DNA from: Cryomorpha ignava
GTDB taxonomy: Bacteria > Bacteroidota > Bacteroidia > Flavobacteriales_D > Cryomorphaceae
NCBI RefSeq assembly: GCF_010686655.1
Contig: NZ_JAAGVY010000028.1
Coordinates: 1 to 64,000 of the forward strand
Direction of reading: 5' to 3'
Length of the DNA stretch: 64,000 bases
Shown piece by piece: positions 57,029 through 64,000 of the stretch. Within the stretch, counting starts at the first letter, position 1, and every line of letters starts with the position of its first letter. The notes under the pieces were generated by a model. The model ran no database searches, had not been told where the DNA came from, and saw nothing but the letters and a program-made list of their open reading frames with translations. Made by a program: the position numbers and the translations under genes.

Positions 57029-59140
57029 TTGAAACGCCTGCTTCTCCCTGTAATAATTATTTTGATTGCTATTGCGGTAATTTTTATCGGCGGTAAGGAC
57101 GAAGTAAAAGGAGCCGGATTTACACACAGTGTAAAGAATCCATTGCTTCTCATAGGCTCCATTGCCGGTAGCGGATCTGTTTCATCTGTTCAGGAAATCG
57201 CTGAATTGGGCGATATCGAATTTTTGCCGGTAGGCAAAATGCCCACCTTTGGCTTTAGCGATGTGCCACAATATATCAAACTCCGCGTTTTTAATTTTGA
57301 AAACCGGGCCGTGGAAAAGGTGCTGGAAGTTAAAAATCCCATCCTCAACGTTTGCAACCTCTACGAAATTGAAGGCAATACAGCTAGGGTGCTTTTTAAG
57401 GCAGGCGATGAGAAAGACTTTTCGGAGCGCCCGGTTCCGCATATAAATTATCAATTTCCAGTGTGGCTGCAGCCAAATAGTACACGCGAATTTATTCTCA
57501 AAGTCTCTGCTAAAGGTGAGCAACTTCAAGTGCCAATTGGCCTTTGGACAAATGCAGAATTATCGCTACGCGATGAAAAAGACAGGCTGCTTCGCGGAAT
57601 CTATTTCGGAATTATTCTCTTTGTACTTCTTTTCAATCTTTTTATTTACCTCATTATCAAGGAAAAATCTACACTTTGGTATGTATTTTATGTATTCGCA
57701 CTGCTTATGCTTCAGCTATCGCTCGGCGGATTTGCGCATCGGTATTTTTGGCCCGAATCTACTTACCTGACCAATATTGCCAATCCATTTTTTGCCTCGG
57801 CGAGCATATTTGCACTTATTAAGTTTACTCAGCAGTTTTTAAATCTCAAAGAATTTTATCCGCGGCTCAACAAGGTCTTTGCGCTAATGGCCCATCTCGT
57901 GGCAATAAACATGCTGCTGGCACTGATTTATACACCGTTGTTTTTTAAGATCTCCGTTCTTTCTATAAATACCATAGCACTCATTCTCAATGCCATGATA
58001 TTGCCTACGGTGATTATGGTGATGCGCAAGAACTTTAAGCCTGCACGTTATTTTCTGTATGCATTTATTATTCTAGTGGGCAGCGTATTCCTTTTTATTC
58101 TCAATAATTTCGGACTTTACGAAAGCGATTTTTACGCTACTTATGGCCTTCAGATCGGCTCGGCGCTCGAAGTGATATTGCTCTCTTTTGCGATTGTAGA
58201 TAAATTTAAAATCTTTAGAGAAGAAGCCTATACCCGATTGGTTACCATTACCGATATGAAGGCCAAAGCCAATGAAGTGCTCGAAAAGAAAGTGACCGAG
58301 CGCACCCATGAAATTGCCATGCAAAAGCAAATTGTTGAAAAACAGAAAGAAGAAATTGTAGACAGCATTCGCTATGCCGAGCGCATCCAAAAATCTATTT
58401 TGCCCACAATGGCCGAAATTGAAGGTTTGTTTGGAGATAATTTTGTGCTCTTCAAACCCCGCGATATTGTAAGTGGCGATTTCTACTGGTTTGGCAAAAC
58501 CCACGAAGACCATCCCTGGAAAGGAAAAACAAACCTGCGCCATTTTGCGGCAGTAGATTGTACTGGTCATGGCGTACCTGGAGCCTTAATGAGCATGCTT
58601 GGGCATAATAGTCTGGAGCAGTGCCTTACGGCAAAAGGGGTTGAATCGCCGGGAGATGCCTTAGACTTTTTAAACAACGAAATAATAGCTGCATTACAAC
58701 ATGATAGCAGCGGCGAGCTGAATGTAAGCGACGGGATGGATATTGCCTTTTGCACCTACGACCCTGACTCACGGTTGCTCTCATTTGCAGGAGCTAAAAA
58801 CAATCTTTACATCCTTCGAAATGGAGAATTTATTGAGTTGAAAGGAGACAGAAAAGCTATCGGATTGGAAGAAATCAATGCCGACAATGGGTTTACAAAC
58901 CACGAAATAAGGCTCGATCCCGGCGATATGGTTTATACATTTACCGATGGTTATCCAGATCAATTCGGTGGAGACCGAAACAAAAAGCTAAAGTCTAAAA
59001 CCCTGCTTCAAAAAATCGCCGACTTTGCTCATTTGGAAATGGATGAACAAAAAAATGCGCTGCTGCACGCTTTTGATGAGTGGCGTGGAGAAAATGAGCA
59101 AATTGACGATGTGTGTATGCTTGGGATAAAAATTCTTTAA
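57029..59140 (+). CDS. 7TM-DISM receptor with SpoIIE-type phosphatase domain
   Basis: This 703-residue membrane signalling protein starts with TTG, giving an N-terminal signal or membrane segment (about 3-21). An extracytoplasmic DISM-type sensor (about 55-180) leads to seven membrane helices (about 190-390) and a coiled coil (about 405-455). A PP2C/SpoIIE serine phosphatase domain follows from about 470, with KPRDIVSGDFYWF (D484), AAVDCTGHGVPGALMS (D510) and YTFTDGYPDQFGG. Such proteins dephosphorylate anti-anti-sigma-type partners or signal to regulators. None is adjacent. Its 3' end is duplicated at 60826-61033. Confidence 0.9.
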   Translation: MKRLLLPVIIILIAIAVIFIGGKDEVKGAGFTHSVKNPLLLIGSIAGSGSVSSVQEIAELGDIEFLPVGKMPTFGFSDVPQYIKLRVFNFENRAVEKVLEVKNPILNVCNLYEIEGNTARVLFKAGDEKDFSERPVPHINYQFPVWLQPNSTREFILKVSAKGEQLQVPIGLWTNAELSLRDEKDRLLRGIYFGIILFVLLFNLFIYLIIKEKSTLWYVFYVFALLMLQLSLGGFAHRYFWPESTYLTNIANPFFASASIFALIKFTQQFLNLKEFYPRLNKVFALMAHLVAINMLLALIYTPLFFKISVLSINTIALILNAMILPTVIMVMRKNFKPARYFLYAFIILVGSVFLFILNNFGLYESDFYATYGLQIGSALEVILLSFAIVDKFKIFREEAYTRLVTITDMKAKANEVLEKKVTERTHEIAMQKQIVEKQKEEIVDSIRYAERIQKSILPTMAEIEGLFGDNFVLFKPRDIVSGDFYWFGKTHEDHPWKGKTNLRHFAAVDCTGHGVPGALMSMLGHNSLEQCLTAKGVESPGDALDFLNNEIIAALQHDSSGELNVSDGMDIAFCTYDPDSRLLSFAGAKNNLYILRNGEFIELKGDRKAIGLEEINADNGFTNHEIRLDPGDMVYTFTDGYPDQFGGDRNKKLKSKTLLQKIADFAHLEMDEQKNALLHAFDEWRGENEQIDDVCMLGIKIL

Positions 59141-59585
59141 CTCATATATTTCGTTGCTGAATTGATGTATTAAAGTAATTGACTGTCAGTCAATTACCCC
59201 CCCCCCATTTTAAAATTTATTAACAAAATATTAGGATAATAAGAAAACAAACTTTAATTTCAGAGCCCCATTTTAGGAAAGAGAAAGCATTCGCAGCAGA
59301 CGGGACCGAAAGATTAAAAATTAAGTTCTTGCCAGACGTTTATTTTACCGGCAGGAACTTCGAATATAAAAATTAAAAAACCCCAACGGACTAGGTTGGG
59401 GTCATCAAAACCACCCGGCTCTAAAAGGAGGTGATTATGAATTGACAAAGGTATATAAATTGCACTTTAATATCAATCGGTATTAATAAGCAGGTTATTG
59501 TCATGAGCCAAATCCTGACACGACTGTCTGCCCGATACGCGGCGGTAATCCCTGCCTGAAAGGGAATTCATCCAATAAAACTCTT
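59141..59585. other. Leader/intergenic region holding RNA element A
   Basis: Most of this 445-base gap is the structured element at 59176-59445. After it, about 140 bases lead to the secreted-protein gene at 59586. They contain short inverted words (CCCGATACGCGGCGG, CCCTGCCTGAAAGGG) but no reading frame. Confidence 0.7.
59176..59445 (+). ncRNA. Putative structured RNA element, copy A
   Basis: From 5' to 3' the element contains the following parts. Hairpin 1: 9-bp stem, 59176-59184/59188-59196, loop GTC. A run of ten C (59197-59206). A block of 29 bases identical to copy B (59275-59303). Hairpin 2: AAGTTCTTGCC/GGCAGGAACTT (59323-59333/59350-59360) with a T-G wobble. Hairpin 3: ACCCCAAC/GTTGGGGT (59380-59387/59395-59402). 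Then AAAAGGAGGTGATTATG, an extended Shine-Dalgarno followed by the mini-ORF ATG AAT TGA (59437-59445). It could be a small RNA or the 5' leader of the secreted-protein gene. No known RNA family was recognised. Confidence 0.6.
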
Positions 59586-60578
59586 ATGAAATATTTTTCC
59601 TTTTGCCCATTTATTTTGGCACTCTTATTCTCTACTTTGGGTTTTGGACAAAACCTTGTTCCAAACCCAAGTTTTGAGGAGTATTTAGAGTGTCCGCAAG
59701 GCACAGCTGACTTTCAAACACAAGTTGTAGATTGGTACTCTTGGCAAGAAACTCCGGATTACTTTAATGCTTGCAATAATACTGAGCTTGGCACGGCTGG
59801 GGTACCCACTAATGCATGGGGTTACCAATATCCCGTATCTGGCAGTGCCTATGCTGGATTAATAACTTATGTTCATTATTTAGAAAACGGAAGAGAGTAT
59901 ATTGCTTGTCCAATCGATCAATTGACAATTGGTATTAGTTACTATGTCATGTTTTACGTATCTAACTGTGATAATGGTTCCACGATTGAATGGAGTTGTG
60001 CAACAAATCATCTCGGGTTGAAATTTTTCAAAGATTCATCCTATAGCTTCAATTCAAATCCCTATACACCCGAAAACACAGCAGACATTGAATTTAATGA
60101 AATGTTTACTGATACTACTAATTGGCATTTGGTTGAAGGTTGGTTTACAGCAGATCAAGCTTACAATTGGATTGCTCTCGGAAATTTTTATGATGACGAC
60201 CATACAGACACCCTTCAACTCAGCAATCCAAATAATCAGTTAAACGAATGTGCTGCGGTTTATTATATTGATAATGTTTGTATCTCAGCAAATCCTGCTG
60301 ACTGTCACTATTTATTGGGCTCAAGAGCTCATGAATTTGAGGTTAGTATAGATGTTTACCCCAACCCTACCAATGGTGAGTTATCTATATCAAGCAATAC
60401 ATTACAAATCGTAAACATCACAGTGTACAGTGTTTTAGGAAAGTTGATTTATCAAAAACATGAACATGAGAACAAAATTGTACAGCTAACTATAGGTCAA
60501 TGGGCATCTGGAATATATATAATTGAGATTGAACTGGATGATGGAATTTTTTATCAAACAAAAATTTTAAAGAAATGA
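59586..60578 (+). CDS. Secreted T9SS substrate, NLVPNxSFE family, copy 1
   Basis: This 330-residue protein has signal peptide MKYFSFCPFILALLFSTLGFGQ. A beta-sandwich body of the OmpA-associated/carbohydrate-binding style begins NLVPNPSFEEY and contains TPDYFNAC, GVPTNAWGYQYPVSGSAYAGL and ENGREYI. A type A T9SS sorting domain covers about 255-330 (VDVYPNPTNGELSI...GIYIIEIELDDG). It is therefore predicted to cross the outer membrane by the T9SS and stay surface-attached or be released. It is paralogous to the 61387 gene. Its stop overlaps the following fragment's ATG by four bases. Confidence 0.85.
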   Translation: MKYFSFCPFILALLFSTLGFGQNLVPNPSFEEYLECPQGTADFQTQVVDWYSWQETPDYFNACNNTELGTAGVPTNAWGYQYPVSGSAYAGLITYVHYLENGREYIACPIDQLTIGISYYVMFYVSNCDNGSTIEWSCATNHLGLKFFKDSSYSFNSNPYTPENTADIEFNEMFTDTTNWHLVEGWFTADQAYNWIALGNFYDDDHTDTLQLSNPNNQLNECAAVYYIDNVCISANPADCHYLLGSRAHEFEVSIDVYPNPTNGELSISSNTLQIVNITVYSVLGKLIYQKHEHENKIVQLTIGQWASGIYIIEIELDDGIFYQTKILKK

Positions 60579-60718
60579 AAAATTTATACGTATTGCTCAC
60601 ACTAATATTTATTCCGTTACTGTCATATTCACAGACAACCGTTACAAATAACAATCCTTTTACGGGAGCATTCCTTGGTTGGAATGCCGGTCAAGATCTA
60701 GACTTCAAAACCAACTAA
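60575..60718 (+). pseudogene. Truncated 5' fragment of an exported-protein gene
   Basis: A 47-codon frame begins with a convincing signal peptide (MKNLYVLLTLIFIPLLSYSQ) and continues PFTGAFLGWNAGQDLDFKTN before TAA. The gene at 62550 has the equivalent FPGDFLGTTNNQVLNFKTN and then runs on for hundreds of residues. This is therefore the preserved beginning of a paralog whose remainder was deleted. The ATGA overlap with the preceding gene suggests it was once part of that operon. A short secreted peptide may still be made. Confidence 0.75.
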
Positions 60719-60825
60719 AACATCAATCCCCAACTTAAATAAATTCAAAGAGCACAACGCTATGCAAAAGCGAGAATTATCCTCCGTCTTTTAACAATAT
60801 CTGACACATTAAAAGAAGTGTAAGA
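60719..60825. other. Deletion-junction segment
   Basis: These 107 bases link the truncated exported-protein gene to the phosphatase remnant. One frame, from 60785, reads RLLTISDTL, loosely like RLVTITDMK just after the membrane region of the intact receptor. It could be a further scrap of the lost paralog, but the match is too short to be firm. Confidence 0.4.
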
Positions 60826-61033
60826 TTTTACGTTTACCGATGGCTATCCCGATCAATTCGGCGGCGACCGAAACAAAAAGCTGATGTCGAAAACCCTTCT
60901 TCAAAAAATCGCCGACTTTGCACATCTGGAAATAGACCAACAAAAAAGTGCGCTCTTATCCGCTTTTGATGAATGGCGCGGTGAGAATGAGCAGATTGAT
61001 GATGTGTGTGTGGTTGGGATAAGAATTGGCTAG
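60826..61033 (+). pseudogene. 3' remnant of a second receptor-phosphatase gene
   Basis: The frame from just after a TAA to a TAG encodes about 69 residues, TFTDGYPDQFGGDRNKKL...DEWRGENEQIDDVCVVGIRIG. This matches the last part of the intact receptor-phosphatase (about 59 of 68 positions identical). Across this stretch I count about 18 synonymous differences but only nine amino-acid changes. The paralog evidently evolved under protein-level constraint before it lost its front part. No start codon or signal for expression is present. Confidence 0.85.
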
Positions 61034-61074
61034 CCCTTATATTCGTTGTTGCATCGACGAATTGAGAAATCTGA

Positions 61075-61331
61075 TAATCAGCTGATTACCCCCCCCCTAT
61101 TTATAATTAATTAACTAAAAATTAGGATAACAAAATAATAACTGTTAATTTCAAAGCCACTTTATAGGAAAGAGAAAGCATTCGCAGCAGACGGCACCCC
61201 AAGATTGAAATTCAAGTTCGAGCCAAAATTATTAACAGGCACGAACTTCAAGCTAAGAATAAAAAACCCCGACGTATGAGGTCGGGGCGAATCAATAACC
61301 ACCAAGGTCAAAAAAGGAGGTGATTATGTAA
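61075..61331 (+). ncRNA. Putative structured RNA element, copy B
   Basis: It has the same order of parts as copy A. Hairpin 1 is the palindrome TAATCAGCTGATTA (61075-61088), followed by nine C (61089-61097). The identical 29-base block is at 61166-61194. Hairpin 2 is AAGTTCGAGCC/GGCACGAACTT (61214-61224/61238-61248, one mismatch). Hairpin 3 is CCCCGAC/GTCGGGG (61267-61273/61281-61287). At the end AAAAAAGGAGGTGATT leads to ATG TAA (61326-61331), a start codon directly followed by a stop. Compared with copy A, several paired bases changed together (A-T to G-C in hairpin 3, T-G to G-C in hairpin 2), supporting an RNA structure. Confidence 0.6.
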
Positions 61332-61386
61332 AAACAAAAGTAGTACTATTATTCTGATACTTCAACAGGGTCTTTGAAACCGTAAG

Positions 61387-62523
61387 ATGTGTCGAATAAT
61401 TTCTACTTTAATTTGTCCGCTAGATGCGAGGCTGCGTACTTCAGAAATACATTGTACTCAAAAACTAATCAATTTTTTAAAAATTCCTATTTTGATTTAC
61501 CGTTTTATATTTTTTGCGATAAGTATTTTGACTTGGCATACGGTTATTGCCCAATCACCTAATCTGGTTCCTAACGGAAGTTTTGAAACACGAATTGAAT
61601 GTATCTGGAATGATGGTTTTATAGCAGATGCACCGCCATGGTTTAACCCGACAAGAGCTACACCAGATGTTTTTCATCAATGTTCTGTTGTGAATTCAGA
61701 TCCTTGCCCCTGGCCTGATCAATATTACCTCGATCCTTGGCTTTATGGTGTTCCAACTAATGCGCTTGGATGTGAAAGCCCTTATGATGGTGATGGTTAT
61801 GCAGGATTATTCGTGGCAGGCAATAATATTAATGGATATGATGGCTATAAAGAATATATAGGCGTCCGTTTAAATAATCCTTTAACTGCCGGAAATCAAT
61901 ATACATTGAAATTTGCAGTATCACTGCCTGAAAGGATTGGAAATGCCATTTGGAATGTTCAGGTGTATTTTGGTTCGGATAGTATTTTCCAACCGGATAG
62001 TATTATAGCACCTTATGATAGTTATCTTGACGTCAATCCACAACTTTCTGGAACTCCCGGAGAATATATTACGAATTATGATGGATGGCACGAAATGGCC
62101 TGGGACTATACCGCTAGTGGAGATGAAGCTTTCATGTATATTGGGAACTTCCAACCAGATTCAGAAACGGATACTTTATATGTATTGCAAGAAGATCCTG
62201 AAGATAACTTTTCTTTATTTTCTTATTACTATATTGATCAAATAGAACTAAGAGAAGGCACTTTAAATATGACTGAAATACCATTTAAACAAAACTTTAA
62301 AGTATATCCCAATCCCAGCACCAACAAGTTAAAGATTGAATCAGATTCTCAAATAAAAAGGATTCAAATATTGAACTTAGAAGGAAAAATTTTGAAAAAT
62401 GTAAGCTTTTTTACAAGCGAATTATACGAGACTGATATTTCAAAATTATCAAGTGGAATGTATGTCCTTAAAATTACATTTTACGATGGTCTTATCGATA
62501 TGTGCAAATTTATAAAACGGTGA
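61387..62523 (+). CDS. Secreted T9SS substrate, NLVPNxSFE family, copy 2
   Basis: This protein of up to 378 residues is paralogous to the 59586 product. It has NLVPNGSFETRIEC, TPDVFHQC, GVPTNALGCESPYDGDGYAGL, YKEYIGVRL, and a C-terminal type A sorting domain (KVYPNPSTNKLKI...GMYVLKITFYDG). The start is uncertain. The ATG at 61387 gives a long hydrophilic lead before the hydrophobic IYRFIFFAISILTWHTVIAQ. A TTG at 61492 would give a normal signal peptide. The RNA element ends about 55 bases before the ATG. Confidence 0.82.
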   Translation: MCRIISTLICPLDARLRTSEIHCTQKLINFLKIPILIYRFIFFAISILTWHTVIAQSPNLVPNGSFETRIECIWNDGFIADAPPWFNPTRATPDVFHQCSVVNSDPCPWPDQYYLDPWLYGVPTNALGCESPYDGDGYAGLFVAGNNINGYDGYKEYIGVRLNNPLTAGNQYTLKFAVSLPERIGNAIWNVQVYFGSDSIFQPDSIIAPYDSYLDVNPQLSGTPGEYITNYDGWHEMAWDYTASGDEAFMYIGNFQPDSETDTLYVLQEDPEDNFSLFSYYYIDQIELREGTLNMTEIPFKQNFKVYPNPSTNKLKIESDSQIKRIQILNLEGKILKNVSFFTSELYETDISKLSSGMYVLKITFYDGLIDMCKFIKR

Positions 62524-62549: not shown

Positions 62550-64000
62550 ATGAAAATTCTTAAACTCTTATTTACATTCTTAATTACTTACATTTTAGTT
62601 AGCAATGTATCCCAAGCTCAAGATTGGGATACCGCAGGAAATTCTACCTTTCCCGGCGATTTTTTAGGCACAACCAATAATCAGGTTCTCAATTTTAAGA
62701 CCAATAGCCTTTTCAGGATGCGGTTGATGAATAGCACCGGCTATCTCGGTGTTGGCTCTCAAACCTTTACCCCATCGGCTTCTTTGCATCTAAACCTATT
62801 GTCATATAATATCAATGCAGGCAATTTGATAAGAACAGATGGCAGGGTAAACCTCAATTTGAGCTGGGCAATGTACAGCGGCACCAATGTTGGAAACTCT
62901 GTTCAAAGAGCCAGATTTTTATTAAGCCCTTTTACAGATACTCAAAATGACGATCACGACACCGTGATGTTTAATGACGCAATAAACCACTTACAAATAG
63001 AGTCTACACTTGGTGATATCGTTTTTCAAGCTCATGGAGCCAATAGCTCAACAGAACAGGGAGAATTATTTGAAAGAATGCGTATTACAAGTGCGGTGTA
63101 TAGCGATCCTCACTGGGACGAGGTTACAACATCTACAACCCGGGTCTCTATTTCGGGAAGGCCCGATCGCGAAATTACAGAACCACTTGCAATGCTTCAT
63201 ATTGGGGAAGCTTGGGATTTTCAAAGAGGTGGCCACCGCGAATGGATGAACTCTGGAGTCTATATCAACAGGGGTAATGATAACGTTTTTTTCGGAATGC
63301 GACCAAGAGAGAATACAACAGATTCAGACGATAATGATGCTATAATCGCTTGGGGCGACAATGCTGCGCCTCCCGGAAGAGAAGACGGATTGAGAATTGT
63401 ATTTTCAGGCCCTTATGACTCAAGTGCAAATCCTGGAGAAGACGCCCATTTGAATGGACTTGAAACCATGCGTTTTCATCCTTCTGGAAATATTGGAATG
63501 GGTGACTTTTCAGTAAATGGACTCGATCAAATGCCTACCGAGAAATTGGATATTGTTGGCAGGTTGCGGGTAAGAGATGTTCCGTTAATAGAAAATCCAG
63601 ATGTACTCTTCGTCGGCCGCGAAATAGATGACGAAGGCGATTATGTGCTGAATCATCTCACTTTTCCAGATGACGATACGCAAGTTTTAAGTGGAACAGG
63701 TGAATGGATTGATATAAGTAGCACAGGTGGTGCAGATTGTAGATGGGTGGATATAGGTTCTGGAACTATAGGAGGAGAACTGGATATACGTATGGGATTT
63801 GATCCTAACTCTGATTGTTATAGAGGGAAAGTAGCTATAGGGGCCCCATTTATAAAGGATGCTAAATTAGAAGTTCACGCAAATTTTGAACGAGATGAAA
63901 TTCGAACCGCTGCCATTTTCCGTATACGTGGCGATCAGGATAATCTTGACAACATTCTGACTGGAGCTGTTGCCCTTTCTGATGGTATTCAGGGAGCTCC
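62550..64000 (+). CDS. Exported FLG...FKTN protein (partial, runs off the window)
   Basis: The frame is open from ATG 62550 to the window end, giving 483 residues so far. Signal peptide MKILKLLFTFLITYILVSNVSQAQ is followed by FPGDFLGTTNNQVLNFKTNSLFRMRLMNSTGYLGVG. This opening is seen in a family of large Bacteroidota cell-surface proteins whose bodies resemble phage-tail-fibre or T9SS cargo repeats (GNIGMGDFSVNGLDQMPTEKLDIVGRLRVRDVP). The C-terminus, where a sorting or chaperone domain would be, is outside the window. It lies 26 bases after copy 2 of the NLVPNxSFE gene, matching the order in copy 1. Confidence 0.8.
   Translation, partial: MKILKLLFTFLITYILVSNVSQAQDWDTAGNSTFPGDFLGTTNNQVLNFKTNSLFRMRLMNSTGYLGVGSQTFTPSASLHLNLLSYNINAGNLIRTDGRVNLNLSWAMYSGTNVGNSVQRARFLLSPFTDTQNDDHDTVMFNDAINHLQIESTLGDIVFQAHGANSSTEQGELFERMRITSAVYSDPHWDEVTTSTTRVSISGRPDREITEPLAMLHIGEAWDFQRGGHREWMNSGVYINRGNDNVFFGMRPRENTTDSDDNDAIIAWGDNAAPPGREDGLRIVFSGPYDSSANPGEDAHLNGLETMRFHPSGNIGMGDFSVNGLDQMPTEKLDIVGRLRVRDVPLIENPDVLFVGREIDDEGDYVLNHLTFPDDDTQVLSGTGEWIDISSTGGADCRWVDIGSGTIGGELDIRMGFDPNSDCYRGKVAIGAPFIKDAKLEVHANFERDEIRTAAIFRIRGDQDNLDNILTGAVALSDGIQGA

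Follow-up and report, generated by a model that had tools for sequence, protein, structure and literature searches.

A multicopy candidate small RNA with an anti-Shine-Dalgarno motif, encoded beside genes for T9SS-sorted proteins in Cryomorpha ignava and related genomes

Small RNAs (sRNAs) that carry anti-Shine-Dalgarno (anti-SD, aSD) motifs are known from bacteria in which SDs are common. The double-hairpin RNAs of Burkholderia are about 60-90 nt long, and the second of their two hairpins is the terminator; they have CU-rich stretches complementary to ribosome-binding sites, and each genome has 3-5 copies at dispersed places (PMC5688073). For one of them, ncS27, the action by pairing with mRNA was shown by overexpression and antisense silencing (PMC5688073). 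The rhizobial cuckoo RNAs, or alpha-r14 (NfeR1), keep an ultraconserved aSD motif unpaired, and their stems are highly different in sequence (PMC10746234). In Neisseria, the NmsR RNAs are near-identical sibling sRNAs working through aSD motifs (PMC5362039). Pairing with mRNA has been shown for NfeR1 and NmsR as well. The Flavobacteriales are a different host: essentially only rpsU has an SD, and the 16S rRNA tail is hidden by bS21, bS18 and bS6 (PMC9976891). A structurally conserved, multicopy anti-SD sRNA in this order raises the question of what an anti-SD can pair with where the ribosomes hide their own and the mRNAs, rpsU apart, have no SD.

Here we describe such a candidate from Cryomorpha ignava (GCF_010686655.1). 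The window, that is the whole stretch of 64,000 nt analysed (NZ_JAAGVY010000028.1, positions 1 to 64,000), contains the string AAGGAGGTGATTATG exactly twice on the plus strand, at 59425-59439 and 61314-61328. Allowing up to three mismatches, six sites were found in the window against 1.8 expected, so the recurrence of AAGGAGGTGATTATG is not due to chance. The string is followed by ATG AAT TGA in copy A and by ATG TAA in copy B, as a preliminary description of this DNA had noticed. The complementarity to the 16S rRNA 3′ end that it had also pointed out is real, the organism's own 16S rRNA ending in GGAACACCUCCUUUUUAGAGA (L232). The two copies are true sequence copies but they are not independent, since a single duplication of about 250 bp gave rise to them, with 79% identity over 244 bp. 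The preceding 7TMR/SpoIIE-domain gene (57029-59140 in full) has its 3′ end within the duplicated block; a truncated duplicate of this gene end, belonging to the same segmental duplication, is located at 60828-61035. A third copy (C), 82% identical, lies on another contig of the same genome (C10:66990-67243, locus L002, G000 contig 10).

The sequence strongly suggests that each copy is a minus-strand gene for a small RNA of ~67-78 nt, which starts from a promoter of its own and ends at an intrinsic terminator. In copy A, the sRNA is predicted to be about 67 nt long (59375..59441, minus strand), starting at about 59441 and terminating at about 59375; in copy B it would be about 70 nt long (61261..61330, minus strand), with the start at about 61330. 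Read on this strand, copy A has the layout TTG-N20-TACCTTTG-TCAATT-CATAATCACCTCCTTTT and copy B the layout TTG-N20-TACTTTTG-TTTTTA-CATAATCACCTCCTTTT, and both finish with a GC hairpin followed by TTTTTT. The predicted sigma-A-type promoters thereby occupy 59446..59476 in copy A (minus strand; TTG at 59476-59474, 20 nt, TACCTTTG at 59453-59446) and 61335..61365 in copy B (minus strand; TTG at 61365-61363, 20 nt, TACTTTTG at 61342-61335). All 12 copies scanned have TAnnTTTG, or a form of it that differs in one base (TATCTTCG, TACCTTTA), exactly 6 nt 5′ of a CAT that forms the conserved 5′ end, with a TTG further upstream at a spacing of mostly 20-21 nt. TAnnTTTG is the −7 box of the Flavobacterium sigma-A, sited at −12 to −5 (PMC9723704), which puts the predicted start of the sRNA 1-2 nt before the CAT.

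Folding returns two hairpins, with z-scores from −2.9 to −5.1: copy A, matched by the covariance model at 59375-59439 (−), folds with −23.4 kcal/mol (z −2.9), and copy B, matched at 61261-61328 (−), with −23.7 kcal/mol (z −4.4). Hairpin 1 spans 59406..59439 in copy A (CAUAAUCACC / GGUGGUUUUG) and 61294..61328 in copy B (CAUAAUCACC / GGUGGUUAUU), on the minus strand in both. It presents CCUCCUUUU, and its loop opens with UCCUUUU, the anti-SD. The exposure of the loop differs by copy, and the CU stretch of copy A may be partly paired. The predicted intrinsic terminators (59379..59403 in copy A and 61266..61288 in copy B, minus strand) have their T-run on the minus strand only; no T-run was found on the plus strand 3′ of either hairpin in these two copies. 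Judging from this layout, the “SD” is the reverse complement of the anti-SD and the “ATG” that of the 5′ CAT.

A first covariance model, built on nine copies, was used to search 150 genomes of the order and retrieved a new member in genome G004 (L081, E 5.5e-5), in which the arms of hairpin 1 pass from AAUCACC/GGUGGUU to AUAUACC/GGUGUAU with CCUCC unchanged. Two diverged members (L202 and L205) were spotted upstream of homologues of the neighbouring gene described below, here called gene 1, and scored 1.8e-5 and 1.2e-6 with the same model; none of these three sequences was in its training set. Upstream of seven control gene-1 homologues, nothing like the L202 and L205 elements was found. A second covariance model comprises 13 members, all with E ≤ 5e-9, and the next match has an E-value of 0.04. 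The members are distributed over four of the eight genomes of the family, three in C. ignava (G000), six in G003, two in G004 and two in G007; with the covariance models, no copy was found in G001, G002, G005 and G006. A class-wide model search, in which 12 candidates per genome were scored and from which diverged members could escape, gave no convincing match in about 400 other Bacteroidia genomes.

In a public genome collection, a pattern search gave 34 stretches, among which the real elements belong to contigs from two MAGs labelled “Flavobacteriales bacterium”. These two, MAG28 and MAG29, correspond to G003 and G007 and are the only genomes of the collection that carry the exact string as sRNA. 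The remaining stretches were rejected as coding or chance matches, except for three that are true SDs of Hsp20. Exact 14-mer matches outside the family were nearly all coding, with the same coding site recurring. Two matches on viral contigs were judged to be chance, those in phages were 24-nt matches only, in coding sequence, and no match was found on plasmids.

Covariation was assessed on the 13-sequence alignment, which was fitted to the model and is hence biased towards structure. In this alignment 93% of the cells pair, and in 16 cells both partners have changed, where shuffles gave 3.8 ± 1.7 (0/500 shuffles); slid registers gave at most 8 double-change cells. The CCUCC is invariant in 13/13 copies while the stems covary. 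The signal comes from the diverged members, the nine close copies alone having little covariation. A MAFFT alignment (A3), in which the terminator stem of copies A-C is mis-registered, showed no covariation, whereas the model-fitted one did. The preliminary description had named a lack of further homologs and of covariation as what would refute it, and the outcome was the opposite, 13 homologs and clear covariation; its proposal of a structured RNA present in duplicate, with base changes that compensate each other, was right. The wobble-type cells, which are not independent of each other, amount to 26 G-U and 0 C-A on the minus strand; on the plus strand there would be 0 G-U.

The same description had favoured the plus strand, where the string would be an ideal SD and the reading frame behind it would be empty, as a leader that captures or senses ribosomes. 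This reading was reasonable: the string makes a perfect SD, and the identical AAAAGGAGGTGATTATG is the genuine extended SD and start codon of Hsp20 in three Chitinophagaceae (L160 7679-, L171 5735-, L176 3714-). However, the mini-ORF is not conserved: a stop follows the ATG within two codons in 11/13 copies, but in copy C (ATG AAA AAA CAA AAG TAG) it is postponed to codon six, and in G003:C221 it is lost and the frame stays open. Moreover, the −7 box, the terminator T-run and the G-U pairs are all on the minus strand; the plus-strand reading is not supported, and we consider it very improbable. An rpsU-type extended-SD leader would have its SD on the strand that is transcribed, followed by a conserved ORF, and this arrangement was not found. 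What the signals of promoter and terminator point to is the minus-strand anti-SD sRNA, “a small RNA” having been among the options originally listed. More generally, when one strand only is read, an anti-SD sRNA can be mistaken for an SD followed by an empty ORF.

The relation with the 16S rRNA is close. The sRNA is identical to the organism's own 16S tail over 11 nt (CACCUCCUUUU) in 10/13 copies, and the other three have CACCUCCUUU (G003:C221), ACCUCCUUU (one G004 copy) and only CCUCC (the other G004 copy, G004:C8, the most divergent of all). As regards the use of SDs by the host, we counted matches in the region before the start codon for 604 genes, over 864 kb of genome. No enrichment was found: an uninterrupted run of five or more matches to the 16S complement precedes 17/604 genes, and the mock windows gave 20 and 17, in agreement with the literature (PMC9976891). 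In another Bacteroidia genome, AAAAGGAGGTAAGTATG precedes the gene of a ribosome hibernation factor (S30AE; L225 1503-). By their sequence, the Hsp20 and S30AE genes would be SD-bearing stress genes besides rpsU.

Sequence supports the anatomy of the gene, its strand, copy number, covariation and neighbour; transcription itself, pairing in trans with mRNA and the direction of the regulation are what we infer. The sRNA would be transcribed from its own sigma-A promoter and stopped at the intrinsic terminator. It would then act in trans on a few mRNAs that carry purine-rich, AGGAGG-like sites: the CU-rich loop would pair with these sites, and the pairing would block or destabilise the mRNAs, as with other anti-SD sRNAs. 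The sibling copies have stayed similar within each genome, each in a divergent promoter region common with the gene of a T9SS-secreted protein. Traits of sibling anti-SD sRNAs are present: an unpaired CCUCC/CU-rich motif that is kept while the stems vary, several copies per genome, and, as sequence signals, a promoter and a terminator for each gene. In our analysis, an action mainly by mRNA pairing is the explanation we moderately favour.

Among the candidates examined, i.e. rpsU, Hsp20 and the leader of the neighbour gene, no target of the sRNA was found. rpsU was rejected since its SD is weak in the sRNA-bearing genomes, with pairing energies of −6.0, −9.5 and −4.0 kcal/mol; the pairing is stronger in 3/4 family genomes without the sRNA, which are too few genomes to conclude. 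At the rpsU loci (L195-L201), the SD is weak or absent in genomes that have the sRNA, and AAAGGAG(A) is present in 3/4 family genomes without it, a sample that is far too small. Hsp20 was rejected because no SD is present in its three readable leaders from the family. The cognate pairing of the sRNA with the leader or start of gene 1 was also rejected, z being near 0 in most copies.

The missing SD targets make a serious rival of another explanation, which we regard as possible and clearly less probable than mRNA pairing. The sRNA could be a decoy of the 16S tail, binding the factors that handle this tail (the bS21-bS18-bS6 pocket, Era, the nucleases that trim the 16S 3′ end) rather than mRNAs, and could thereby tune ribosome maturation or the exposure of the anti-SD. 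This agrees with the 11-nt identity to the lineage's own tail, with the lack of an SD-bearing mRNA pool as substrate, and with the tail of Bacteroidia being held by bS21/bS18/bS6 (PMC9976891). Nevertheless, the CCUCC retained by G004:C8 is less than a protein-bound mimic might need, and we found no biochemical precedent for such an sRNA. A fuller version, in which a multicopy, concertedly evolving 16S-tail mimic linked to T9SS cassettes acts on the ribosome or on maturation and anti-SD-sequestering factors (bS21 pocket, Era), appears marginally less probable still.

Of the 13 copies, 12 are divergently upstream of a gene-1 homologue, and the last one is at a contig end with the partner out of view. 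The gene-1 products, about 270-350 aa long, are secreted proteins with T9SS type A sorting, and the distance from the sRNA to the gene is 101-157 bp in the copies measured. More distant gene-1 homologues have no sRNA. In copy A, gene 1 (59586..60578, +) encodes a secreted protein of 330 aa with a T9SS type A sorting domain (PF18962 / TIGR04183), and in copy B gene 1 (61387..62523, +) encodes a T9SS-sorted secreted protein 29% identical to it. Where the sequence is long enough, gene 1 is usually followed 3′ by gene 2, which encodes a larger protein; both examples tested have Peptidase_S74 and T9SS sorting domains. Gene 2 of copy B (62550..64000, +) runs past the window end and has homologues with Peptidase_S74 chaperone and T9SS sorting domains, whereas that of copy A is a remnant (60575..60718, +) cut short after about 47 codons in comparison with the full gene 2 in L074 and L076.

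This association could mean that the sRNA works in cis and governs gene 1 and gene 2, either through its transcription or, if the T9SS operon has a long leader, as an antisense RNA to it. We hold this to be unlikely: in the copies scanned there is no consistent plus-strand promoter upstream of the sRNA, the signal of cognate pairing is missing, and the sRNA is retained where the genes are damaged. Indeed, in copy C (L002, about 1900-2950) gene 1 is frameshifted, gene 2 also looks cut short and the sRNA is intact, and in copy A the sRNA is kept despite the shortened gene 2.

Elements and adjacent proteins evolve in different ways. Taking the sRNA plus 110 nt downstream as the element, and using a permissive aligner for which the lower identities are near background, element identity within a genome is 81-94% (69-76% for pairs with the outlier G003:C221), against mostly 29-37% for the gene-1 proteins of the same genome. 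Conversely, the closest cross-genome gene-1 pairs (79%, 54% and 46%) correspond to elements that are only 76%, 67% and 81% identical with this aligner. The element of copy A is nearest to that of C, yet gene 1 of C resembles that of B and not that of A. Uniform elements beside diverged proteins suggest that the region of the sRNA gene undergoes gene conversion or an exchange of cassettes. One could go further and suppose that the element matters as DNA, as a site of gene conversion or cassette exchange or as a divergent promoter region, the RNA being incidental. Homogenisation within genomes next to diverging proteins, and a poly-C tract close by in several copies, would fit; the compensatory changes, the G-U bias and the preserved promoter and terminator signals are instead signatures at the RNA level, and we consider this explanation improbable, even more so than control in cis.

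The remainder of the duplicated element, 59186..59374 in copy A (no strand assigned), contains this poly-C tract and a further hairpin (AAGTTC..GAACTT); both are kept across the three C. ignava copies and lie outside the 70-nt sRNA model. The further hairpin, beyond the sRNA terminator, is at 59310-59372 in copy A (AAGTTCTTGCC/GGCAGGAACTT) and at 61207-61252 in copy B (AAGTTCGAGCC/GGCACGAACTT); it has a paired change and is conserved only among these three copies. That of copy A, with a T-rich stretch after it on the minus strand, is perhaps a back-up terminator. The tract consists of 9-10 consecutive C, which are G on the strand of the sRNA, and is found in the window at 59198-59207 and 61090-61098, at about 1697-1707 in L081, and in L076. 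It lies 120-180 nt past the sRNA terminator in several copies (about 123 nt past the sRNA end in L076), is interrupted in others, and in copies A and B comes immediately after a palindrome of 14-20 bp. Candidate meanings are a phase-variable tract, a recombination site or chance. Between the sRNA and gene 1, the G004 copies and G003:C221 have a long inverted repeat, TCARACC...GGTYTGA, in which the changes are paired (L081 about 1390-1480, L202 about 230-330, L205 about 210-315). For the secreted-protein gene it is a candidate leader with structure, or a candidate site for a regulator.

Our conclusions are drawn from sequence evidence in one bacterial family, MAG assemblies included. Within this frame, the sRNA would be a natural probe for bS21-dependent ribosome specialisation. 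The only SD-16S tail system established in Flavobacteriales is the autoregulation of rpsU/bS21 (PMC9976891), to which the element is related by its subject; unlike there, where the mRNA carries the SD, here an RNA carries the anti-SD, and the rpsU SD is weak in the genomes that bear the sRNA.

Compared with the described sRNAs, no match for the element was found in Rfam at curated thresholds. In a permissive scan, two sRNA families of Burkholderia, both with a CU-rich 5′ hairpin and a terminator, matched the minus strand weakly and over the full length: RF02837 (anti-hemB), with 25.1 bits for copy B and 16.9 bits for copy A, far below the gathering value of 49.5, and RF02278 (Betaproteobacteria toxic small RNA), with 21.9 bits for copy B only, far below the gathering value of 50. 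Members from the other genera gave no match to RF02278 or RF02837. The likeness to these families and to the Burkholderia double-hairpin RNAs consists in size, two hairpins with the terminator second, a CU-rich stretch and multiple copies; the differences from RF02278 and RF02837 are the phylum, a host that hardly uses SDs, the lineage-specific 11-nt match to the 16S and the T9SS gene alongside. NmsR, likened here by its published description, also consists of sibling sRNAs with aSD motifs, but it is a tandem pair in Betaproteobacteria with TCA-cycle targets shown. With the alpha-r14/cuckoo RNAs of rhizobia, the Cryomorpha element has in common a constant aSD motif with varying stems. Unlike it, the cuckoo RNAs have three hairpins with CCUCCUCCC, an SD-using host and experimentally shown targets, against one CCUCCUUU motif and two hairpins here. 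Taken together, the sequence comparisons speak best for sibling anti-SD sRNAs encoded in several copies, which resemble the double-hairpin RNAs of Burkholderia and the cuckoo RNAs of rhizobia in their design and fall outside the Rfam families of these RNAs.
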